NCBI RefSeq assembly: GCF_021538895.1
Contig: NZ_JADDRL010000007.1
Location: forward strand, 62,001 to 126,000
Reading direction: 5' to 3'
Origin: Streptomyces olivochromogenes
Lineage (GTDB): Bacteria > Actinomycetota > Actinomycetes > Streptomycetales > Streptomycetaceae
DNA length: 64,000 nucleotides
In this document: positions 32,421 to 39,397 of the stretch, one piece after another
Position numbering within the stretch: the first letter of the stretch is position 1
Layout of the letters: the number at the start of each line of letters is the position of its first letter
Notes under the pieces: model-generated
Told to the model about the DNA's origin: nothing
Seen by the model: only the letters and a program-made list of their open reading frames with translations
Databases searched by the model: none
Translations under genes and position numbers: made by a program

Positions 32421-32466
32421 GCAACACAGGTGGGACCAGGTGGGGCAGCGGGAAGGGGCAGCCGGT

Positions 32467-33360
32467 TTGACCACGCACGCACCGCAGGCGGCGCAGGCCG
32501 TCACGCTGCCCACGACTCTGGACGAGGCCGTGGCGGCGCTCACCGCCATGCCCGCCGCCGTTCCCGTCGCGGGCGGCACCGATCTCATGGCCGCCGTCAA
32601 CTCCGGACAGCTCAGGCCCGCCGCCCTGGTGGGTCTCGGGCGGATCAGCGAGATCCGCGGCTGGCAGTACCAGGACGGCCACGCGCTGCTCGGCGCCGGC
32701 CTCACGCACGCCCGCATGGGCCGCCCCGACTTCGCGGCCCTGATCCCGGCGCTCGCCGCCGCCGCGCGCGCCGCGGGCCCGCCGCACATCCGCAACGCGG
32801 GCACCCTGGGCGGCAACATCGCCTCCGCCGCGCCCACCGGCGACGCGCTCCCGGTGCTGGCCGCCCTGGAGGCGGCGCTGATCATCGCCGGCCCGGGCGG
32901 TACGGGCCGGGAGATCCCGGTGTCGCACCTGCTGGCGGGCGTGGAGATGCTGCGCGCCGGCGAACTCATCGGCTACGTGCGCGTGCCGCTGCTGCACGCT
33001 CCGCAGGTCTTCCTGAAGGCGACCGGCCGGACCGGGCCGGGCCGTGCGGTCGCCTCCGTGGCCCTCGTCCTCGATCCCGCCCGGCGCGGAGTGCGGTGCG
33101 CCGTCGGCGCCATAGCGCCCATGCCGCTCAGGCCCCTGGAGGCCGAGCAGTGGGTCGCCCAGCTCATCGACTGGGACAACGACCGGGCGATCGTCCCCGA
33201 GGCGCTGAACGCCTTCGGGGAGTACGTCGCCTCGGCCTGCATCCCCGACCCGGCCCCGGAGCAGGACGGATCCGTGCCGGCGCTTCCGCCCGCCGTACTG
33301 CACCTGCGGCGCACCGTCGCCGCGCTGGCCCGACGAGCACTGGGGAGGGCGCTGTCGTGA
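32467..33360 (+). CDS. Molybdenum hydroxylase FAD-binding subunit (CoxM/XdhB type)
   Basis: A 297-aa FAD subunit. TTG 32467 follows GGAAGGGG at 8 nt; a GTG at 32440 would add nine residues. FAD-binding motifs are AAVPVAGGTDLMAAVNSG and, further on, IRNAGTLGGNIASAAPTGDALP, the characteristic TxGGN loop. Electrons pass from the molybdenum subunit through the iron-sulfur subunit to this flavin. The stop overlaps the next GTG, making a coupled operon of three subunits in the order M-S-L. Confidence 0.9.
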   Translation: MTTHAPQAAQAVTLPTTLDEAVAALTAMPAAVPVAGGTDLMAAVNSGQLRPAALVGLGRISEIRGWQYQDGHALLGAGLTHARMGRPDFAALIPALAAAARAAGPPHIRNAGTLGGNIASAAPTGDALPVLAALEAALIIAGPGGTGREIPVSHLLAGVEMLRAGELIGYVRVPLLHAPQVFLKATGRTGPGRAVASVALVLDPARRGVRCAVGAIAPMPLRPLEAEQWVAQLIDWDNDRAIVPEALNAFGEYVASACIPDPAPEQDGSVPALPPAVLHLRRTVAALARRALGRALS

Positions 33361-35327
33361 CCGACGACCAGCACGGGGACGGCACGTCGCGGGGGCGCTG
33401 GGATCCGCTGCCCCAGGGCGACTACGACGACGGCGCCACCGCCTTCGTGAAGCTTCCGGAGGGCGGCATCGACGCCCTCCTGGCCGCCGACAGCCCGCTC
33501 GCCGCGCCCGGCCACGGGTACGTGCCGCCGCAGATAACGGTGGCTCCCGCCACGAACGCCGGGACCGATCCGGCGGCCACGGGCACCTGGACCATGCCGG
33601 CCGACGGCACCCAGTGGCCCGACCCGAACGCCGTGCCCCAGGACGCGGGCGCGGACGACCGGTTCACGTACCACCCCGCCGCCACCCAGCAGTGGACCTT
33701 CGAGGAGCCCCCGCCCGCGCCGGCGCCCGCCCCCGGCCACGACGTGACCGGCCAGTGGTCCATCCCCGTCGCGGGCGGCGACCTTCCGGACGAATCGGGC
33801 GAGTTCACCACGTCCTCGCTGGTCGAGCAGTGGGGCGGCACCCCGCCGGCCACCCTCCCCGGCGGCGCGTCCGCGCCCTGGGCGACCGAGCCGGCGGACC
33901 GGTCCTGGGACCACCGGCAGACGGGTCCGGGGACCGAGTCCGAAGCGCCGGCGGGACACCCGCGCGCGGGCGGACAGCCGGCGGACACACGGCCGGGCGA
34001 GGCCCGGACCCAGGAACACGCGCCCGCATCGGGCGCCGACCGCCCCGGCACCGGCGCCCCGTTCGCGGGCGGCTACCCGGAACCGCCGACCGACGGCGAC
34101 ACCGGGACGCTCTCCGGGCACGCCACCGGGACGATGCCCGGGCACGACACCGGCACCTCGGCCGGGCAGGGCCACGACACGTTCGCCGGGCGGAGCCACG
34201 ACACGCTGGGCGGCCGGGGTTCCGAGACGCTGGGCGGCCAGCGGCACGACACGCCGGCCGCGCAGAGCCACGACACCTTGGCCGGACGCGGTTCCGACAC
34301 GCTGGGCGGCCGGGGTTCCGACACCCTCGCCGGGCGGAGTCACGACACGCCGGCCGGGCAGAGCCACGACACTCTGGCGGGGCAGGGTCACGACACCCTG
34401 ACCGGGCGGAGCTCCGACACCTTGGCCGGACGCGGAGCCGGCGTCGTCGCCGGGCACCCCGTGCACGAGGCGGACGCGGCGCGCGAGCCGGCCGAAGACG
34501 CCGAGTCGGGCGAGGCGTTCGCGGCGAGGGAGGCCGACGCCGCCCGCGGGGCCGAGGAGGCCTCTGAGGGGCCCTCTGGGCGCCCCGTGGACCCCGATGC
34601 CACCCCGGATGCCGAACTCGCCCCGGAGGCCGGGGAAACGGCTGCGACGGACGCCGAGTCCGACGACGCGGCGGGCTCCGTCCCGCCGCACGACGACCAC
34701 CCCCTCGCCGCCTACGTCCTGCGCGTCAACGGCGTCGAGCGCCCCGTCTCCGACGCCTGGATCGGCGAGTCCCTGCTGTACGTGCTGCGCGAGCGGCTCG
34801 GACTCGCCGGCGCCAAGGACGGCTGCTCGCAGGGCGAGTGCGGGGCGTGCAACGTCCAGGTGGACGGGCGGCTCGTCGCCTCCTGCCTGGTGCCCGCGGT
34901 CACCGCGGCCGGCAGCGAGGTCCGTACGGTCGAGGGACTCGCCGTCGACGGACAGTCCTCGGACGTGCAGCGGGCGCTCGCCAAGTGCGGCGCGGTGCAG
35001 TGCGGGTTCTGCGTGCCGGGCATGGCGATGACCGTGCACGACCTCCTGGAGGGCAACCCGGCGCCGACCGAACTGGAGGCCCGCCAGGCCCTGTGCGGCA
35101 ACCTGTGCCGCTGCTCCGGCTACCGGGGCGTCCTGGACGCGGTCCAGGAGGTCGTCGCCGAACGCGAGGCGTCCGCCGCGGCGGACGCCGAGACGGACGC
35201 CGACGGGGCACGCATCCCGCACCAGGCAGGTCCCGGAGCCGGCGGCGTCAACCCCTCGGCGTTCGAGGCACACGGCTCACCCGTCGCGCACGACCGGCAC
35301 TACGGCCAGGACGGAGGCCAGGCGTGA
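33357..35327 (+). CDS. [2Fe-2S] subunit of the molybdenum hydroxylase with a very long repetitive N-terminal extension
   Basis: A 656-aa protein from GTG 33357. Only residues about 449-610 are the CoxS-type subunit, normally about 160 aa: plant-type cluster CSQGECGAC...C and the proximal cluster CGFC ... CGNLCRCSGY. Residues 1-440 are acidic, Pro/Thr-rich and disordered. They include eleven near-perfect octapeptides of the SHDTLAGR type (34170-34433), and several WTMP/WSIP-like short motifs (GTWTMP, QQWTF, GQWSIP). The frame is continuous, the codon use is host-like, and start and stop overlap the neighbours, so the extension is a real part of the gene. Confidence 0.88.
   Translation: MTDDQHGDGTSRGRWDPLPQGDYDDGATAFVKLPEGGIDALLAADSPLAAPGHGYVPPQITVAPATNAGTDPAATGTWTMPADGTQWPDPNAVPQDAGADDRFTYHPAATQQWTFEEPPPAPAPAPGHDVTGQWSIPVAGGDLPDESGEFTTSSLVEQWGGTPPATLPGGASAPWATEPADRSWDHRQTGPGTESEAPAGHPRAGGQPADTRPGEARTQEHAPASGADRPGTGAPFAGGYPEPPTDGDTGTLSGHATGTMPGHDTGTSAGQGHDTFAGRSHDTLGGRGSETLGGQRHDTPAAQSHDTLAGRGSDTLGGRGSDTLAGRSHDTPAGQSHDTLAGQGHDTLTGRSSDTLAGRGAGVVAGHPVHEADAAREPAEDAESGEAFAAREADAARGAEEASEGPSGRPVDPDATPDAELAPEAGETAATDAESDDAAGSVPPHDDHPLAAYVLRVNGVERPVSDAWIGESLLYVLRERLGLAGAKDGCSQGECGACNVQVDGRLVASCLVPAVTAAGSEVRTVEGLAVDGQSSDVQRALAKCGAVQCGFCVPGMAMTVHDLLEGNPAPTELEARQALCGNLCRCSGYRGVLDAVQEVVAEREASAAADAETDADGARIPHQAGPGAGGVNPSAFEAHGSPVAHDRHYGQDGGQA
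34170..34433 (+). repeat. 24-bp coding tandem repeat (11 units)
   Basis: Eleven 24-bp units encode octapeptides such as GHDTFAGR, SHDTLGGR, GSDTLAGR and SHDTPAGQ. The units are in frame and of equal length, so copy number can change without frameshift. Confidence 0.95.
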
Positions 35328-37624
35328 GCAACGACGCCGCCACCGCGGACGCCCCCGACGCCCCCGAGGGCCCGCCGCACGGCCTCGGCTCCTCCCTGCC
35401 GCCGGCCGACGCCCGCGCCAAGACCGAGGGCACGTTCCCGTACGCGGCCGACCTGTGGGCCGAGGGCCTGCTGTGGGCGGCCGTCCTGCGCTCCCCGCAC
35501 CCGCATGCGCGCATCGTGTCCATCGACACCTCCCACGCGCGCGAGATGCCGGGCGTACGGGCCGTCGTGACCCACGAGGACGTGCCCGGCACCCCGCGCC
35601 ACGGCCGGGGCACCCCCGACCGCCCGGTGTTCGCCTCCGAGGTCGTGCGCCACCACGGCGAGCCCATCGCCGCCGTCGCCGCCGACCACCCGGACACCGC
35701 GCGGATGGCCGCCGCGGCCGTCATCGTCGAGTACGAGGTGCTCGACCCGGTGACCGACCCGGAGCAGGCCTTCGAGGCCGAACCGCTGCACCCCGACGGC
35801 AACCTGATCCGGCACATCCCGCTGCACCACGGCGACCCGGAGGCGGCCGCCGAGATCGTCGTCGAGGGCCTGTACCGCATCGGCCGCCAAGACCCCGCCC
35901 CCATAGGGGCCGAGGCGGGCCTCGCCGTGCCCCGCCCCGACGGCGGCGTCGAGCTGTACCTGGCCTCCACCGACCCGCACGCCGACCGCAACTCGGCCGC
36001 CGCGTGCTACGGCCTGTCGCCTGAACGGGTGAAGATCGTGGTCACCGGTGTGCCCGGCGCCACCGCCGACCGCGAGGACCAGGGCTTCCAGATCCCGCTC
36101 GGCCTGCTGGCCCTGAAAACCGGCTGCCCGGTGAAGCTGACGGCGACCCGCGAGGAGTCCTTCCTCGGTCACGTCCACCGCCACCCGACCCTCCTGCGCT
36201 ACCGCCACCACGCCGACGCCGAGGGCAAGCTGGTCAAGGTCGAGGCGCAGATCCTGCTGGACGCCGGCGCCTACGCCGACACCTCCGGCGAGGCCCTGGC
36301 CGCCGCCGTCTCCTTCGCCTGCGGTCCGTACGTCGTCCCGAACGCCTTCATCGAGGGCTGGGCCGTCCGCACCAACAACCCGCCCTCCGGCCATGTGCGC
36401 GGGGAGGGTGCCATGCAGGTGTGCGCCGCCTACGAGGCGCAGATGGACAAGCTCGCCAAGAAGGTCGGCCTGGACCCGGCCGAGCTGCGGCTGCGCAACG
36501 TCCTCGCGACCGGCGACGTCCTGCCCATCGGCCAGACGGTGACCTGCCCGGCCCCCGTCGCCGAACTCCTCCAGGCGGTACGGGACTTCCCGCTCCCGCA
36601 GCTTCCCAAGGACACCCCCGAGGACGAGTGGCTGCTGCCCGGCGGCCCCGAGGGCGCGGGCGAGCCGGGCGCGGTGCGCCGGGGCGTCGGCTACGGCCTG
36701 GGCATGGTGCACATGCTCGGCGCGGAGGGCGCCGACGAGGTCTCGACGGCGACGGTGAAGGTCCACGACGGCGTGGCCACCGTCCTGTGCGCGGCCGTGG
36801 AGAGCGGCCAGGGCTTCACCACGCTCGCCCGGCAGATCGTCCAGGACACGCTGGGCATCGACGAGGTGCACGTGGCGCCGGTCGACACCGACCAGCCCCC
36901 GGCGGGCGCGGGCTGCCGCGGCCGTCACACCTGGGTGTCCGGTGGTGCGGTGGAGCGGGCGGCGAAGATGGTCCGCACGCAGCTCCTGCAGCCCCTGGCG
37001 CACAAGTTCGGCATGTCCACCGAACTGCTGCAGATCACCGACGGCAAGATCACCTCGTACGACGGCGTGCTGTCGACCACCGTCACCGAGGCGCTGGACG
37101 GCAAGGAGCTGTGGGCCACCGCGCAGTGCCGCCCGCACCCCACCGAGCCGCTCAACGCCGACGGCCAGGGCGACGCCTTCGTCGGCCTCGCCTTCTGCGC
37201 GATCCGCGCGGTGGTGGACGTCGACATCGAGCTCGGCTCCGTGCGCGTCGTGGAGCTGGCCGTCGCCCAGGACGTGGGCCGGATCCTCAACCCGACGCAG
37301 CTCGCCGCGCGCATCGAGGCGGGCGTCACCCAGGGCGTCGGCATCGCGCTCACCGAGAATCTGCGCACCCCGCGCGGCCTGATCCGCCACCCCGACCTCA
37401 CGGGCTACGCCCTCCCGACGGCCCTGGACGCCCCGGACATCCGGATCGTCAGGCTGATCGAGGAGCGGGACGTGGTCGCCCCCTTCGGCGCGAAGTCGGT
37501 CAGCGCGGTCCCGGTCGTGACCTCCCCGGCGGCCATCGCCTCCGCCGTGCGCGCCGCGACGGGCCGCCCGGTGAACCGCCTGCCGATCCGCCCGCAGGCG
37601 GCGGTGGTGACGACCGGCCAGTGA
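35324..37624 (+). CDS. Molybdopterin-binding subunit of a xanthine dehydrogenase-type enzyme, catalytic Glu absent
   Basis: A 766-aa large subunit (CoxL/XdhC fold) from GTG 35324, coupled to the iron-sulfur gene. The N-terminal domain (DARAKTEGTFPYAADLWAEGLLWAAVLRSPHPHARI) and molybdopterin-contacting segments (HVRGEGAMQ; GRHTWVSGGAVERA) are present. The active-site loop that normally reads GxKGVGE reads GAKSVSA at 722-728, so the Glu that activates the Mo-OH group is replaced by Ala728. The substrate is unknown. Either a divergent chemistry or a lost activity is possible; the intact operon argues against decay. Confidence 0.87.
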   Translation: MSNDAATADAPDAPEGPPHGLGSSLPPADARAKTEGTFPYAADLWAEGLLWAAVLRSPHPHARIVSIDTSHAREMPGVRAVVTHEDVPGTPRHGRGTPDRPVFASEVVRHHGEPIAAVAADHPDTARMAAAAVIVEYEVLDPVTDPEQAFEAEPLHPDGNLIRHIPLHHGDPEAAAEIVVEGLYRIGRQDPAPIGAEAGLAVPRPDGGVELYLASTDPHADRNSAAACYGLSPERVKIVVTGVPGATADREDQGFQIPLGLLALKTGCPVKLTATREESFLGHVHRHPTLLRYRHHADAEGKLVKVEAQILLDAGAYADTSGEALAAAVSFACGPYVVPNAFIEGWAVRTNNPPSGHVRGEGAMQVCAAYEAQMDKLAKKVGLDPAELRLRNVLATGDVLPIGQTVTCPAPVAELLQAVRDFPLPQLPKDTPEDEWLLPGGPEGAGEPGAVRRGVGYGLGMVHMLGAEGADEVSTATVKVHDGVATVLCAAVESGQGFTTLARQIVQDTLGIDEVHVAPVDTDQPPAGAGCRGRHTWVSGGAVERAAKMVRTQLLQPLAHKFGMSTELLQITDGKITSYDGVLSTTVTEALDGKELWATAQCRPHPTEPLNADGQGDAFVGLAFCAIRAVVDVDIELGSVRVVELAVAQDVGRILNPTQLAARIEAGVTQGVGIALTENLRTPRGLIRHPDLTGYALPTALDAPDIRIVRLIEERDVVAPFGAKSVSAVPVVTSPAAIASAVRAATGRPVNRLPIRPQAAVVTTGQ

Positions 37625-37766: not shown

Positions 37767-37874
37767 TTCTGGTCAGTGGGGGACGGCCGCTTCCGACGGG
37801 AGGCCGGACGCCGGCCGTGACGTGCCCCGCCGGGGACTGTGCACGACGAGGTACGACCGAAATCGGGGGGAGCG

Positions 37875-39032
37875 ATGAGCACGACCGACGCCGGTGTCGC
37901 GGCGATCACCCTGACCGAGGACCAACTCGGTCTGTACGTCACACACGCGCCGACGCGCGACCTGCTCACGGGTCCCGGACTGCCCGGCAGCAGCGGCCTG
38001 TTGACCTTCGAGCCGCTGCGCACGGCGGGCCTGCGCACCCTCGCGGACGCGACGGACGGCCCCTCACGGCTGGCGGAGGAGCTGCGCGACCGGCTGGTGA
38101 TAGGGGAACTGGTCGGCCCGGCGGGCATGCTGCGCGAGGCGGTCCTGCTCGACGGCGGCACGGGCGAGATCAGCACCGCGCACCTCTTCGCCCCGGACCC
38201 GCTGCCTCTCGCGTCGTCCCTGGCGACCCTGCTGCGCTTCGCGGCGGTCACGGAGGAGCTGGCCGGTCTGCGCGGCCGTTTCGCCTCCTTCGCCGGGCAG
38301 TACGGCCCGAAGGTGGCGAGCGAGGTGTCCCGCCGGCTCCTCGCCCTCTTCGAGGAGGACGCCGACGGTCGGGTGCCGCCCTACTGGAAGGCGGCCGCGC
38401 TGATCCGCCCCCTCGCCCTGGCCGCGGGCCCCGGCGGGGACTTCGGCCTGACCCTGGACGTCCCGGCCCGCCTCCTGGACCAGGAGTTCGGACAGGGCCG
38501 GGTGGCCCGCTTCGAGGACGTCGACTTCCCGGCCACGCTCACCCACGAGCCGACCCGCCGCTTCCTGCGCGAGACCGGCCTGCCCGAGGACGCGGTCCTC
38601 TTCCGGCTGGACACGGACGTCCCCCTGCCGACCCTGACGGAGTACTACGAGGACGAGCGAGCCGGCGAATACCCCCTGGACGCCCTCCCGGCCCACGCCG
38701 ACCACCTCATACGCCTCGGATACCTGGTCGAGGACAACAGCCTGGTGGTCGACGGCAGGACCGGCGCCGTCCTGAACTTCAGCGAGCCCGAGGCGAGCCT
38801 GAACCCCCTCAACACGGACGTCTCCACGCTCGCGTACACGCTCTGGCTCCTGCACCACGAGCGCACGATCGACGCCCACCTGGGCCATGAGCTGACCACC
38901 GAGGCCTACGCCCAGCTGGCCGCCACGATGCTCCACACCCTGGTGGCCGTCGACCCCACCGCCGCGACGACGGACGCCGCGTGCCACTACTGGACGGAGA
39001 CCTTCCAGGACGAGGCGGGCGGCGTCCTGTGA
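37875..39032 (+). CDS. SUKH-4-type immunity-family protein, probably two domains
   Basis: A 385-aa protein; ATG 37875 follows GGGGGGAG. Two similar halves are visible: LPGSSGLLTFEPLRTAGLRTL...VIGELVGPAGMLREAVLLDGGTGEIS and LTHEPTRRFLRETGLPEDAVLF...HLIRLGYLVEDNSLVVDGRTGAVLNF. Each is a beta-rich SUKH pattern with the typical dG-tG-x turn. SUKH proteins often neutralise toxin domains of contact-dependent or type VII systems, yet no toxin gene is adjacent, so an orphan immunity or a housekeeping use is equally possible. Confidence 0.7.
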   Translation: MSTTDAGVAAITLTEDQLGLYVTHAPTRDLLTGPGLPGSSGLLTFEPLRTAGLRTLADATDGPSRLAEELRDRLVIGELVGPAGMLREAVLLDGGTGEISTAHLFAPDPLPLASSLATLLRFAAVTEELAGLRGRFASFAGQYGPKVASEVSRRLLALFEEDADGRVPPYWKAAALIRPLALAAGPGGDFGLTLDVPARLLDQEFGQGRVARFEDVDFPATLTHEPTRRFLRETGLPEDAVLFRLDTDVPLPTLTEYYEDERAGEYPLDALPAHADHLIRLGYLVEDNSLVVDGRTGAVLNFSEPEASLNPLNTDVSTLAYTLWLLHHERTIDAHLGHELTTEAYAQLAATMLHTLVAVDPTAATTDAACHYWTETFQDEAGGVL

Positions 39033-39397
39033 CCGTCGGTCGCGTCGTCCGCCCGTAGCGGGCACCCGGTACCGACCCGCGCACCGAGCTCGTCCCGCAG
39101 GGCGGCGAGTTCGGCCATCCGCTCGTCGATCACCCGGATCTTGTCCTCGAACAGTGCCGACAGCGCCGTGGCGGAGTCCGGCGCGTCCCGCAGTTCCGCA
39201 CCGTGCCGGGCGATCTCGGCCAGCGAGAAGCCGAGGGCCTGGGCGGTGCGGACGTACAGCAGCCAGGGCACCGTTTCCGGCGGAAAGTCGCGGTAGCCGT
39301 TGGCCAGCCGCCGCCCCTCGACGAGGCCCACCTTCTCGTAGAAGCGAAGGGTGTCCCTGGTCATCCCGGTCTGCTCGGCCAGCTCACCGATACGCAT
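38987..39397 (-). CDS. MerR-family transcriptional regulator
   Basis: A 136-aa MerR regulator. The winged helix (MRIGELAEQTGMTRDTLRFYEKVGLVEGRRLANGYRDF) is followed by a dimerisation helix with DELGARVGTGC; a single Cys near residue 115 could take part in sensing. It overlaps the end of the SUKH gene by 46 nt on the opposite strand. A MerR-type promoter with a 19-bp spacer stands in front of the divergent membrane-protein gene, its likely target. Confidence 0.9.
   Translation of the reverse strand: MRIGELAEQTGMTRDTLRFYEKVGLVEGRRLANGYRDFPPETVPWLLYVRTAQALGFSLAEIARHGAELRDAPDSATALSALFEDKIRVIDERMAELAALRDELGARVGTGCPLRADDATDGHRTPPASSWKVSVQ

Follow-up and report, generated by a model that had tools for sequence, protein, structure and literature searches.

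Three overlapping genes in a 64,000-nucleotide (nt) stretch of the Streptomyces olivochromogenes genome (contig NZ_JADDRL010000007.1, positions 62,001 to 126,000 of the forward strand; hereafter the window) encode the flavin adenine dinucleotide (FAD)-binding, iron-sulfur (Fe-S) and molybdenum (Mo) subunits of a xanthine dehydrogenase-like complex, in which the Fe-S subunit carries a long N-terminal tail. From sequence comparisons and structure models, we propose (with a probability of roughly 0.6) that this is a Streptomycetaceae complex derived from PucD-type xanthine dehydrogenase, whose Mo pocket has been rebuilt and is probably non-hydroxylating, and whose tail would act as a partner-docking arm. 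A preliminary description of the Fe-S gene had singled out the octapeptide repeats of this tail; its observation is confirmed and its interpretation partly supported, and the important part is the neighboring Mo subunit together with the genus-wide tail motifs, rather than the octapeptides. Two results go beyond that description, namely that the octapeptides are unique in our sample and that the active site of the Mo subunit has been changed.

In alignments to solved structures, Ala728 of the Mo subunit falls on the catalytic glutamate (Glu) of the D. gigas aldehyde oxidoreductase (SVSAVP vs. GVGELP), which we take to be Glu869, and the same region reads VSAV vs. ASEG against 4-hydroxybenzoyl-CoA reductase, while VPGATAD falls on the GGGFG-type loop. 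We compared 127 altered rows of the Mo subunit alignment (80 named Streptomyces, 19 other-genus, 27 same-genus and the window) with 15 canonical rows, a set in which species may recur. Seven altered rows end before position 728; the 120 that cover it have Ala (119) or Ser (1), vs. Glu in 13/13 covered canonical rows, and the exchange to Ala is found in all 80 named Streptomyces orthologues. The paralogue matches of the window's own genome keep this Glu (5/5). Likewise, position 244 is Pro in 127/127 altered vs. Gly in 15/15 canonical rows, and position 249 is Asp in 126/127 vs. Ala or Gly in 15/15 (remaining exchanges in Table 1). Overall the pocket has been rebuilt from Glu to Ala, Gln to Thr and GGAFG to PGATA, with new, near-invariant acids at Asp217, Asp249 and Glu361, most of the new residues being as fixed as the canonical ones had been; among the positions fixed in the two groups, 78 differ and 239 are the same. 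Three xanthine oxidase family markers of competence in the Mo subunit, i.e., the catalytic Glu, the active-site Gln and the GGxFG cofactor loop, are missing. Other pocket residues are kept in the 127 altered rows (Arg250 127, Glu251 126, Asp252 127, Arg359 125); Glu251 and Arg359 are the presumed equivalents of the bovine substrate-side Glu802 and Arg880.

The altered Mo complex is not in decay. The AlphaFold2 model of the Mo subunit (predicted local distance difference test, pLDDT, 85.8; predicted template modeling score, pTM, 0.88; dip at residues 245-248) matches xanthine oxidase chains with Z ~40 over ~700 residues (40.6 to bovine 1fiq_C), and the median ratio of non-synonymous to synonymous substitution rates (dN/dS) is 0.12 over 50 orthologues, as expected for purifying selection. 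All eight cluster Cys of the Fe-S subunit (490, 495, 498, 510, 549, 552, 584, and 586 in the window) are present in 134/134 loci, two canonical loci (L102, L103) having been left out beforehand, and the FAD motifs (AGGTD-type and TLGGN) occur in the listed variants of the covered loci, seven rows having AGATD. Two [2Fe-2S] ligand sets, FAD_binding_5, MoCoBD_1/2 and hammerhead domains and the fold all place the complex in the family by descent.

Published mutants indicate what the loss at position 728 could mean. In mouse AOX1, the E1265Q variant showed no activity with any aldehyde or purine tested (PMC2671166, excerpt), and a review names Glu1261 as the base in bovine xanthine oxidoreductase and describes complete inactivation upon Ala exchange of the corresponding Glu in an enzyme called ALO (PMC3624778). 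These mutants of other family members show the Glu to be essential (PMC2671166, PMC3624778). The preliminary description had assigned the tail to a working complex: the tail does belong to a coupled three-gene unit found genus-wide, but since the Mo subunit lacks the catalytic Glu, a working molybdenum hydroxylase is doubtful. The complex might instead still be an active molybdenum hydroxylase whose base has moved to Asp217, Asp249 or Glu361, with a new substrate and the tail as an accessory docking arm. The near-invariance of the new acids, the intact electron-transfer parts and the retention of Glu251 (126/127) and Arg359 (125/127) are consistent with such a relocation, which we nonetheless regard as unlikely given the Glu728 kept throughout the canonical relatives (13/13) and own-genome paralogue matches (5/5), the loss of the GGxFG loop and the inactivity of the corresponding mutants of other members.

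Phylogenetically, G295 (a genome of a different family in the same order) and the Streptomycetaceae rows form one clade (support 100/100), within which 34 Ala-type rows are contained (100/100). G295 is basal, with Glu kept at 728, Gln already replaced by Thr and an extension present; the g119 and g122 rows follow (Asp at 728 in 5/5, GGS[SG]G), and then the remainder (Ala or Ser, PGATA-type, 100/100). Two canonical loci (L324, L325) lie nearer to the altered clade, with weak support (84/46) and on long branches. The nearest named relatives of the window are Streptomyces, S. filipinensis being nearest in the tree, and we accordingly take the window's genus (g1) and family (f1) in the genome sample to be Streptomyces and Streptomycetaceae. 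Since basal G295 combines extension and Glu, the extension may predate the loss of Glu; against this order, the G295 extension (N-terminal, ~470-485 residues, starting 22-64 nt past the FAD stop) may not be homologous to the others, and g122 has neither Glu nor a long extension (two loci, with 15 N-terminal and 25-26 C-terminal extra residues). Bit scores against TIGR03196 (pucD) are 824.5 for L308, 781.2 for G295, 765.4 for the window genome's canonical paralogue, 661.7 for L181, 658.2 for the window and 562.9 for g122, which puts the window's Mo subunit under the equivalog cut-off of 783.65.

The complex resembles the PucD-type xanthine dehydrogenase of actinobacteria (TIGR03196, TIGR03198, TIGR03199) in predicted fold, eight cluster Cys and FAD motifs, and differs from it in lacking the catalytic Glu, the active-site Gln and GGxFG, in its lower pucD score and in its long tail. 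The window's own genome also has a PucD-type cluster with intact active-site residues (G000:C268:10902-13837; L007, L176), whose Mo subunit is 42-44% identical to that of the window. There, too, the Fe-S gene comes close behind a FAD gene, but it has no coupled tail. Molybdenum hydroxylases that are more distant lie on C146, C1, and C271 of this genome.

Turning to the tail, each junction of the three genes is a 4-nt overlap: a GTGA shared with the stop of the FAD gene (33358-33360) contains the GTG start of the Fe-S gene, which GGGGAGGG precedes by seven bases, and the Fe-S stop (35325-35327) overlaps the GTG of the Mo gene. The coupling to both partner genes noted in the preliminary description is therefore real, as is the extension itself, for which ~440 residues had been estimated: the 656-residue Fe-S protein has 448 before its Fe-S domain, which includes Pfam Fer2 (470-505) and Fer2_2 (524-597). 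The name "CoxS-type" given to it is a loose label, since among NCBIfam models the highest scores go to XdhC of xanthine dehydrogenase and to related iron-sulfur subunits, with pucE in fifth place and every one of them short of its cut-off. The aromatic motifs TWTMP, QQWTF, and QWSIP all occur in the tail, as reported. They belong to a motif block with the words RWDPLPQGDYD..ATAFVKLP, PLAAPGHGYVPP, ATGTWTMP, QWPDP, TQQWTF, TGQWSIPVAGGDLPDESGEF, LVEQWGG, and PPATLPGGASAPWAT, or, as an ordered Trp-centered set within the first ~190 residues, RWDPLPQGDYDDGATAFVKLP, PLAAPGHGYVPP, ATGTWTMP, QWPDP, TQQWTF, VTGQWSIPVAGGDLPDESGEFTTSSLVEQWGG, and PPATLPGGASAPWAT.

Against 51 orthologues, the median dN/dS was 0.30 for the motif block, 0.72 for the linker (median 60% aligned) and 0.11 for the Fe-S core, and the GC content at third codon positions was 0.958 in residues 1-190, 0.922 in the repeats, 0.901 in residues 367-447 and 0.967 in the core. 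Given this high third-position GC, the start conserved in orthologues and the motif-block dN/dS of 0.30, the tail looks like real coding sequence. The Fe-S coding region 34700-35327 is also open in the frame shifted by one base, which we ascribe to the high GC content and not to a gene.

We searched 295 same-genus genomes for the Fe-S core, and found it at E ≤ 1e-50 in 288; for 284 of these the E-value was no higher than 6e-81, and the remaining four (G017, G119, G130, G224) only came near 1e-60. An absence of the complex from the other seven genomes was rejected for five of them, in which the Mo subunit is present at 84-93% identity (one partial only), which leaves G008 and G050 as the only genomes possibly without the operon, as judged from these searches. 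A start overlapping the FAD stop together with an extension of 198-825 residues was found in 85/93 same-genus loci, the window's own included; of the eight not counted as coupled, five (L018, L024, L036, L063, L080) had no FAD gene located in the stretch, two (L082, L097) had a frame interrupted upstream and one (L095, tail of 592 residues) starts elsewhere. Among 80 loci of named Streptomyces, 78 had a core match and 69 the coupled start, and the tails of these 69 measurable loci span 275-768 residues (median 383).

The motif block is shared across these tails. The TG[QEH]W-type motif occurred in 68/69 named tails, 79/86 same-genus tails and 5/20 N-terminal tails of other genera, the acidic-[ST]GE[FY] motif in 68/69, 74/86, and 13/20, and ATLPGGxAPW in 59/69, 68/86, and 0/20, these counts being taken over homologues and hence non-independent, which affects the shuffle control (221 vs. 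20.3) equally. Exactly eight Trp were counted in 60/69 named and 62/86 same-genus tails, and only 8/549 Trp lie more than 60 residues past the last [ST]GE[FY], a part which makes up 12330/28063 residues. In a sample of the class, the block was detected in 23/28 genomes of the window's genus and 0/268 others (E 1e-5).

The octapeptides behave differently. The 11 units foreseen in the preliminary description are present, running from GHDTFAGR to SSDTLAGR (residues 272-359), and Tandem Repeats Finder reports a 24-nt period with 11.2 copies in the array. SHDTLAGR-type units occurred in 0/69 named Streptomyces tails and 0/106 other tails, i.e., they are unique to this genome within the sample, and they sit in the fast-evolving linker; we thus reject them as a functional element. 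The survey of homologous operons called for in that description finds the extension genus-wide and the repeats only here, and of the docking role it proposed, the part that fits is the conserved aromatic motifs, whose sequences would suit docking or multivalent binding, and not the His/Asp/Thr octapeptides. In a close relative (L009), a tandem QSYGGQD-type heptad array lies in the C-terminal end of the Fe-S subunit; new repeats therefore arise at either end of the Fe-S protein.

Searched against Pfam, the tail showed no homology up to E 10, and against the PDB it gave two weak matches over the repeats, to chains named Tako8 (E 0.017 and 0.019). A motif-block profile run on the window's own genome matched only itself up to E 10 (150/153 candidates scored), on which ground a sharing of the tail with other proteins of this genome was rejected, and when the GQWSIPVA stretch was searched as a DNA pattern allowing one mismatch, the site itself and one other match came up, vs. 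one for the reversed control pattern. In the AlphaFold2 model the tail is mostly of low confidence, which goes up slightly at residues 21-40 and again at 161-180.

Table 1. Features of the operon and of the related loci (positions within the window; amino acid numbering per protein).
Feature	Position or loci	Strand	Basis
FAD-binding subunit gene	32440..33360	+	Pfam FAD_binding_5 9.1e-40
[2Fe-2S] subunit gene with N-terminal extension	33357..35327	+	GTG start within 4-nt overlap
Conserved motif block of the tail, residues 1-190	33357..33926	+	Motif counts; dN/dS 0.30; class-sample search
Variable Ala/Pro/Glu/Gly-rich linker, residues 191-447, containing the octapeptide array	33927..34697	+	dN/dS 0.72, median aligned fraction 0.60
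Array of octapeptides: 11 good units (272-359) preceded by 3 degenerate ones (248-271)	34098..34433	+	Form x[HS][DE]T[LPF][AGT][GA][RQ]
Two-cluster [2Fe-2S] domain, residues 449-600	34701..35156	+	Pfam; ligand Cys
Molybdenum-subunit gene, active-site-altered PucD-like protein, 766 residues	35324..37624	+	TIGR03196, AlphaFold2, structure match
Thr216-Asp217 for canonical Gln-Trp	35969..35974	+	Thr 127/127, Asp 126/127; canonical Gln-Trp 15/15
VPGATADRED (243-252) for VGGAFG[AG]RED	36050..36079	+	Row alignments
VRGEG (358-362) for MRGFG: Arg359 kept, Phe to Glu361	36395..36409	+	Glu361 127/127; canonical Phe 15/15
Ala728 for catalytic Glu (GVGE to SVSA)	37505..37507	+	Solved-structure alignments; row counts
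Fe-S loci with C-terminal extension	L135, L136, L143, L146, L151, L153-L155, L162-L166, L170, L172, L173		

By analogy, the tail could be a cargo-loading domain into a Family 2B encapsulin shell, a possibility we consider quite unlikely. Family 2 encapsulin cargos with disordered termini include cysteine desulfurases (shown) and terpene cyclases and polyprenyl transferases (proposed; PMC8346489). The window complex shares with these cargos an otherwise normal enzyme fold and a long terminus that is predicted to be disordered and that in some of them bears short conserved motifs (PMC8346489). It differs from them in its motifs and in that no shell gene was recognized beside the operon among the proteins scanned. 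Counting only matches over the curated cut-off (weaker ones occurred in 9/14 unrelated genomes), Family 2B shell genes were detected in 59/61 same-genus genomes, the window's own included, and the two shell-less genomes (G008, G050) are also the two of this set in which neither an Fe-S nor a Mo orthologue turned up, the Mo subunit having been sought directly in only 3/61. Two random picks of 61 would give this same pair once in 1830; yet because both are draft assemblies in many pieces (740 and 1770 contigs, at 98 and 82% completeness), the co-absence may reflect chance or incompleteness. Moreover, the published terpene-cyclase motif GPTGLGT was found in 0/128 Fe-S proteins, no shell family was seen among the 14 neighbor and operon proteins scanned, and the literature searched contained no paper naming Streptomyces, encapsulin and xanthine dehydrogenase together.

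An inert role for the extension, as an entropic spacer or as a solubility tag of which only the bulk matters, would agree with its variable length (198-825 residues), its fast-evolving linker and its C-terminal position in some genera. We find this very unlikely in view of the motif block conserved in most Streptomyces (68/69 named tails for both the TG[QEH]W-type and acidic-[ST]GE[FY] motifs) and of the near-confinement of Trp to the part before or near the last [ST]GE[FY]. An internal start near residue 445, leaving the tail hardly made, is scarcely credible, given an overlapping start with a ribosome-binding-like site conserved in 85/93 loci and protein-level selection on the tail.

Outside Streptomyces, we examined 40 loci from 16 other genera of Streptomycetaceae. 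The overlapping start was present in 39/40, one of which (L150) is a canonical paralogue, and an N-terminal extension of more than 100 residues in 20/40, with related words in these 20 tails (WxPxPxG in 14, APGxGY in 10 and W[ST][IV]P-type in 15). Where the extension is C-terminal (Table 1), it carries other repeated words, e.g., TPAHGT in g131. Both long extensions together were found in none of the 40, and some same-genus proteins with a long N-terminal tail (such as L009) also have a C-terminal end of more than 100 residues. A survey of the family gave matches in 121/121 genomes, of which eight (G670, G673, G686, G688, G696, G698, G700, G704) only reached 1e-48 to 4e-51; because a canonical paralogue also reaches this range, 113/121 are clear by E-value. 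Five of the eight (G670, G673, G688, G698, G704) are of the Asp type, G686 is canonical (L313) and the stretch taken from G696 (L314) contained no Mo match.

Around the operon, the gene order conserved upstream is malic enzyme, HU, murA-type, AlgH, DUF3039 and GH20, and for the FAD gene itself an in-frame TTG at 32467 is a possible start. The operon is followed immediately by the gene of a SUKH-4 immunity-type protein (37839-39029, Pfam 1e-55) and by that of a MerR regulator on the opposite strand (38987-39397), both of which were found in only 1/20 related loci. An operon-encoded partner was considered and none was seen, the downstream genes of the window being kept in only that one locus.

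In our preferred reading of a rebuilt, probably non-hydroxylating complex, the three genes would encode a descendant of PucD-type xanthine dehydrogenase in which base-catalyzed Mo hydroxylation has probably been lost. Electron transfer between FAD and the Fe-S clusters would be kept, with a ligand pocket at the former Mo site, and the complex would act as a redox-active or ligand-binding module, either a pseudoenzyme or one with a new function. The tail would be a disordered arm tethered to the complex, and its repeated aromatic motifs ([TA][GQA]xW[ST][IFVM]P and DESGEF..QWGG) may bind one or more partners multivalently, the fast-evolving linker presumably setting only their reach. More tentatively, and with rather less expectation of being right, we suggest that the Mo site is a non-hydroxylating, possibly ligand-sensing pocket wired to the intact Fe-S and FAD centers, and that the multi-Trp arm couples its state to a partner machine such as a scaffold or protein shell.

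Several points count against the preferred reading. The new acids could stand in for the Glu that was lost. The tail and the loss of Glu do not always go together, as G295 is extended with Glu kept and g122 has lost Glu without a long tail, and 16/40 other-genus loci (g120, g121, g128, g131) have a short N-terminal tail (12-81 residues) and a C-terminal extension of 141-209 residues instead. The conserved neighbors of the operon are upstream housekeeping-type genes, with no partner recognized among them. The AlphaFold2 model is also weak in the first half of the folded Fe-S domain, so the low pLDDT of the tail is poor evidence of disorder. Finally, the pucD cut-off alone is no mark of loss, since the paralogue of the window's own genome, in which the Glu is intact, likewise scores slightly below it (765.4 vs. 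783.65).

From gene order and locus numbering, we take the present complex to be SCO2940-2942 of Streptomyces coelicolor (Mo subunit SCO2940). The XdhABC of that species is SCO1132-1134, a different locus. XdhABC under XdhR is the annotated Streptomyces xanthine dehydrogenase, an annotation like the present one (PMC6627660). SCO2940 is itself listed as "xanthine dehydrogenase, putative" in a data set that includes only genes for which protein was measured, where it is one of nine genes flagged only by a joint protein and mRNA test of growth vs. stationary phase (PMC3770449). By locus tag, that table entry was the only one found for SCO2940 and there was none for SCO2941-SCO2943, and titles and abstract beginnings yielded nothing on the complex or its tail, most subscription journals being outside the coverage of both searches. 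The complex resembles pseudoenzymes generally in keeping a fold while losing a catalytic residue (PMC10211241, excerpt), a literature which, in what was found of it, makes no mention of a molybdenum hydroxylase. If the more tentative reading above holds, no earlier case of a pseudo-molybdenum-hydroxylase that has a docking arm of its own would be known, as far as this literature search reaches.

The complex is found in nearly all sampled Streptomyces, its subunits match xanthine dehydrogenase models best, and its likely S. coelicolor counterpart carries the putative xanthine dehydrogenase annotation. G295 (Glu and extension), the Asp rows and the Ala clade would form a stepwise series of a metalloenzyme losing catalysis and gaining another role. 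If the complex is indeed non-hydroxylating, purine-catabolism models that count it would be wrong, and the role of a conserved complex in this antibiotic-producing family would be newly in question.

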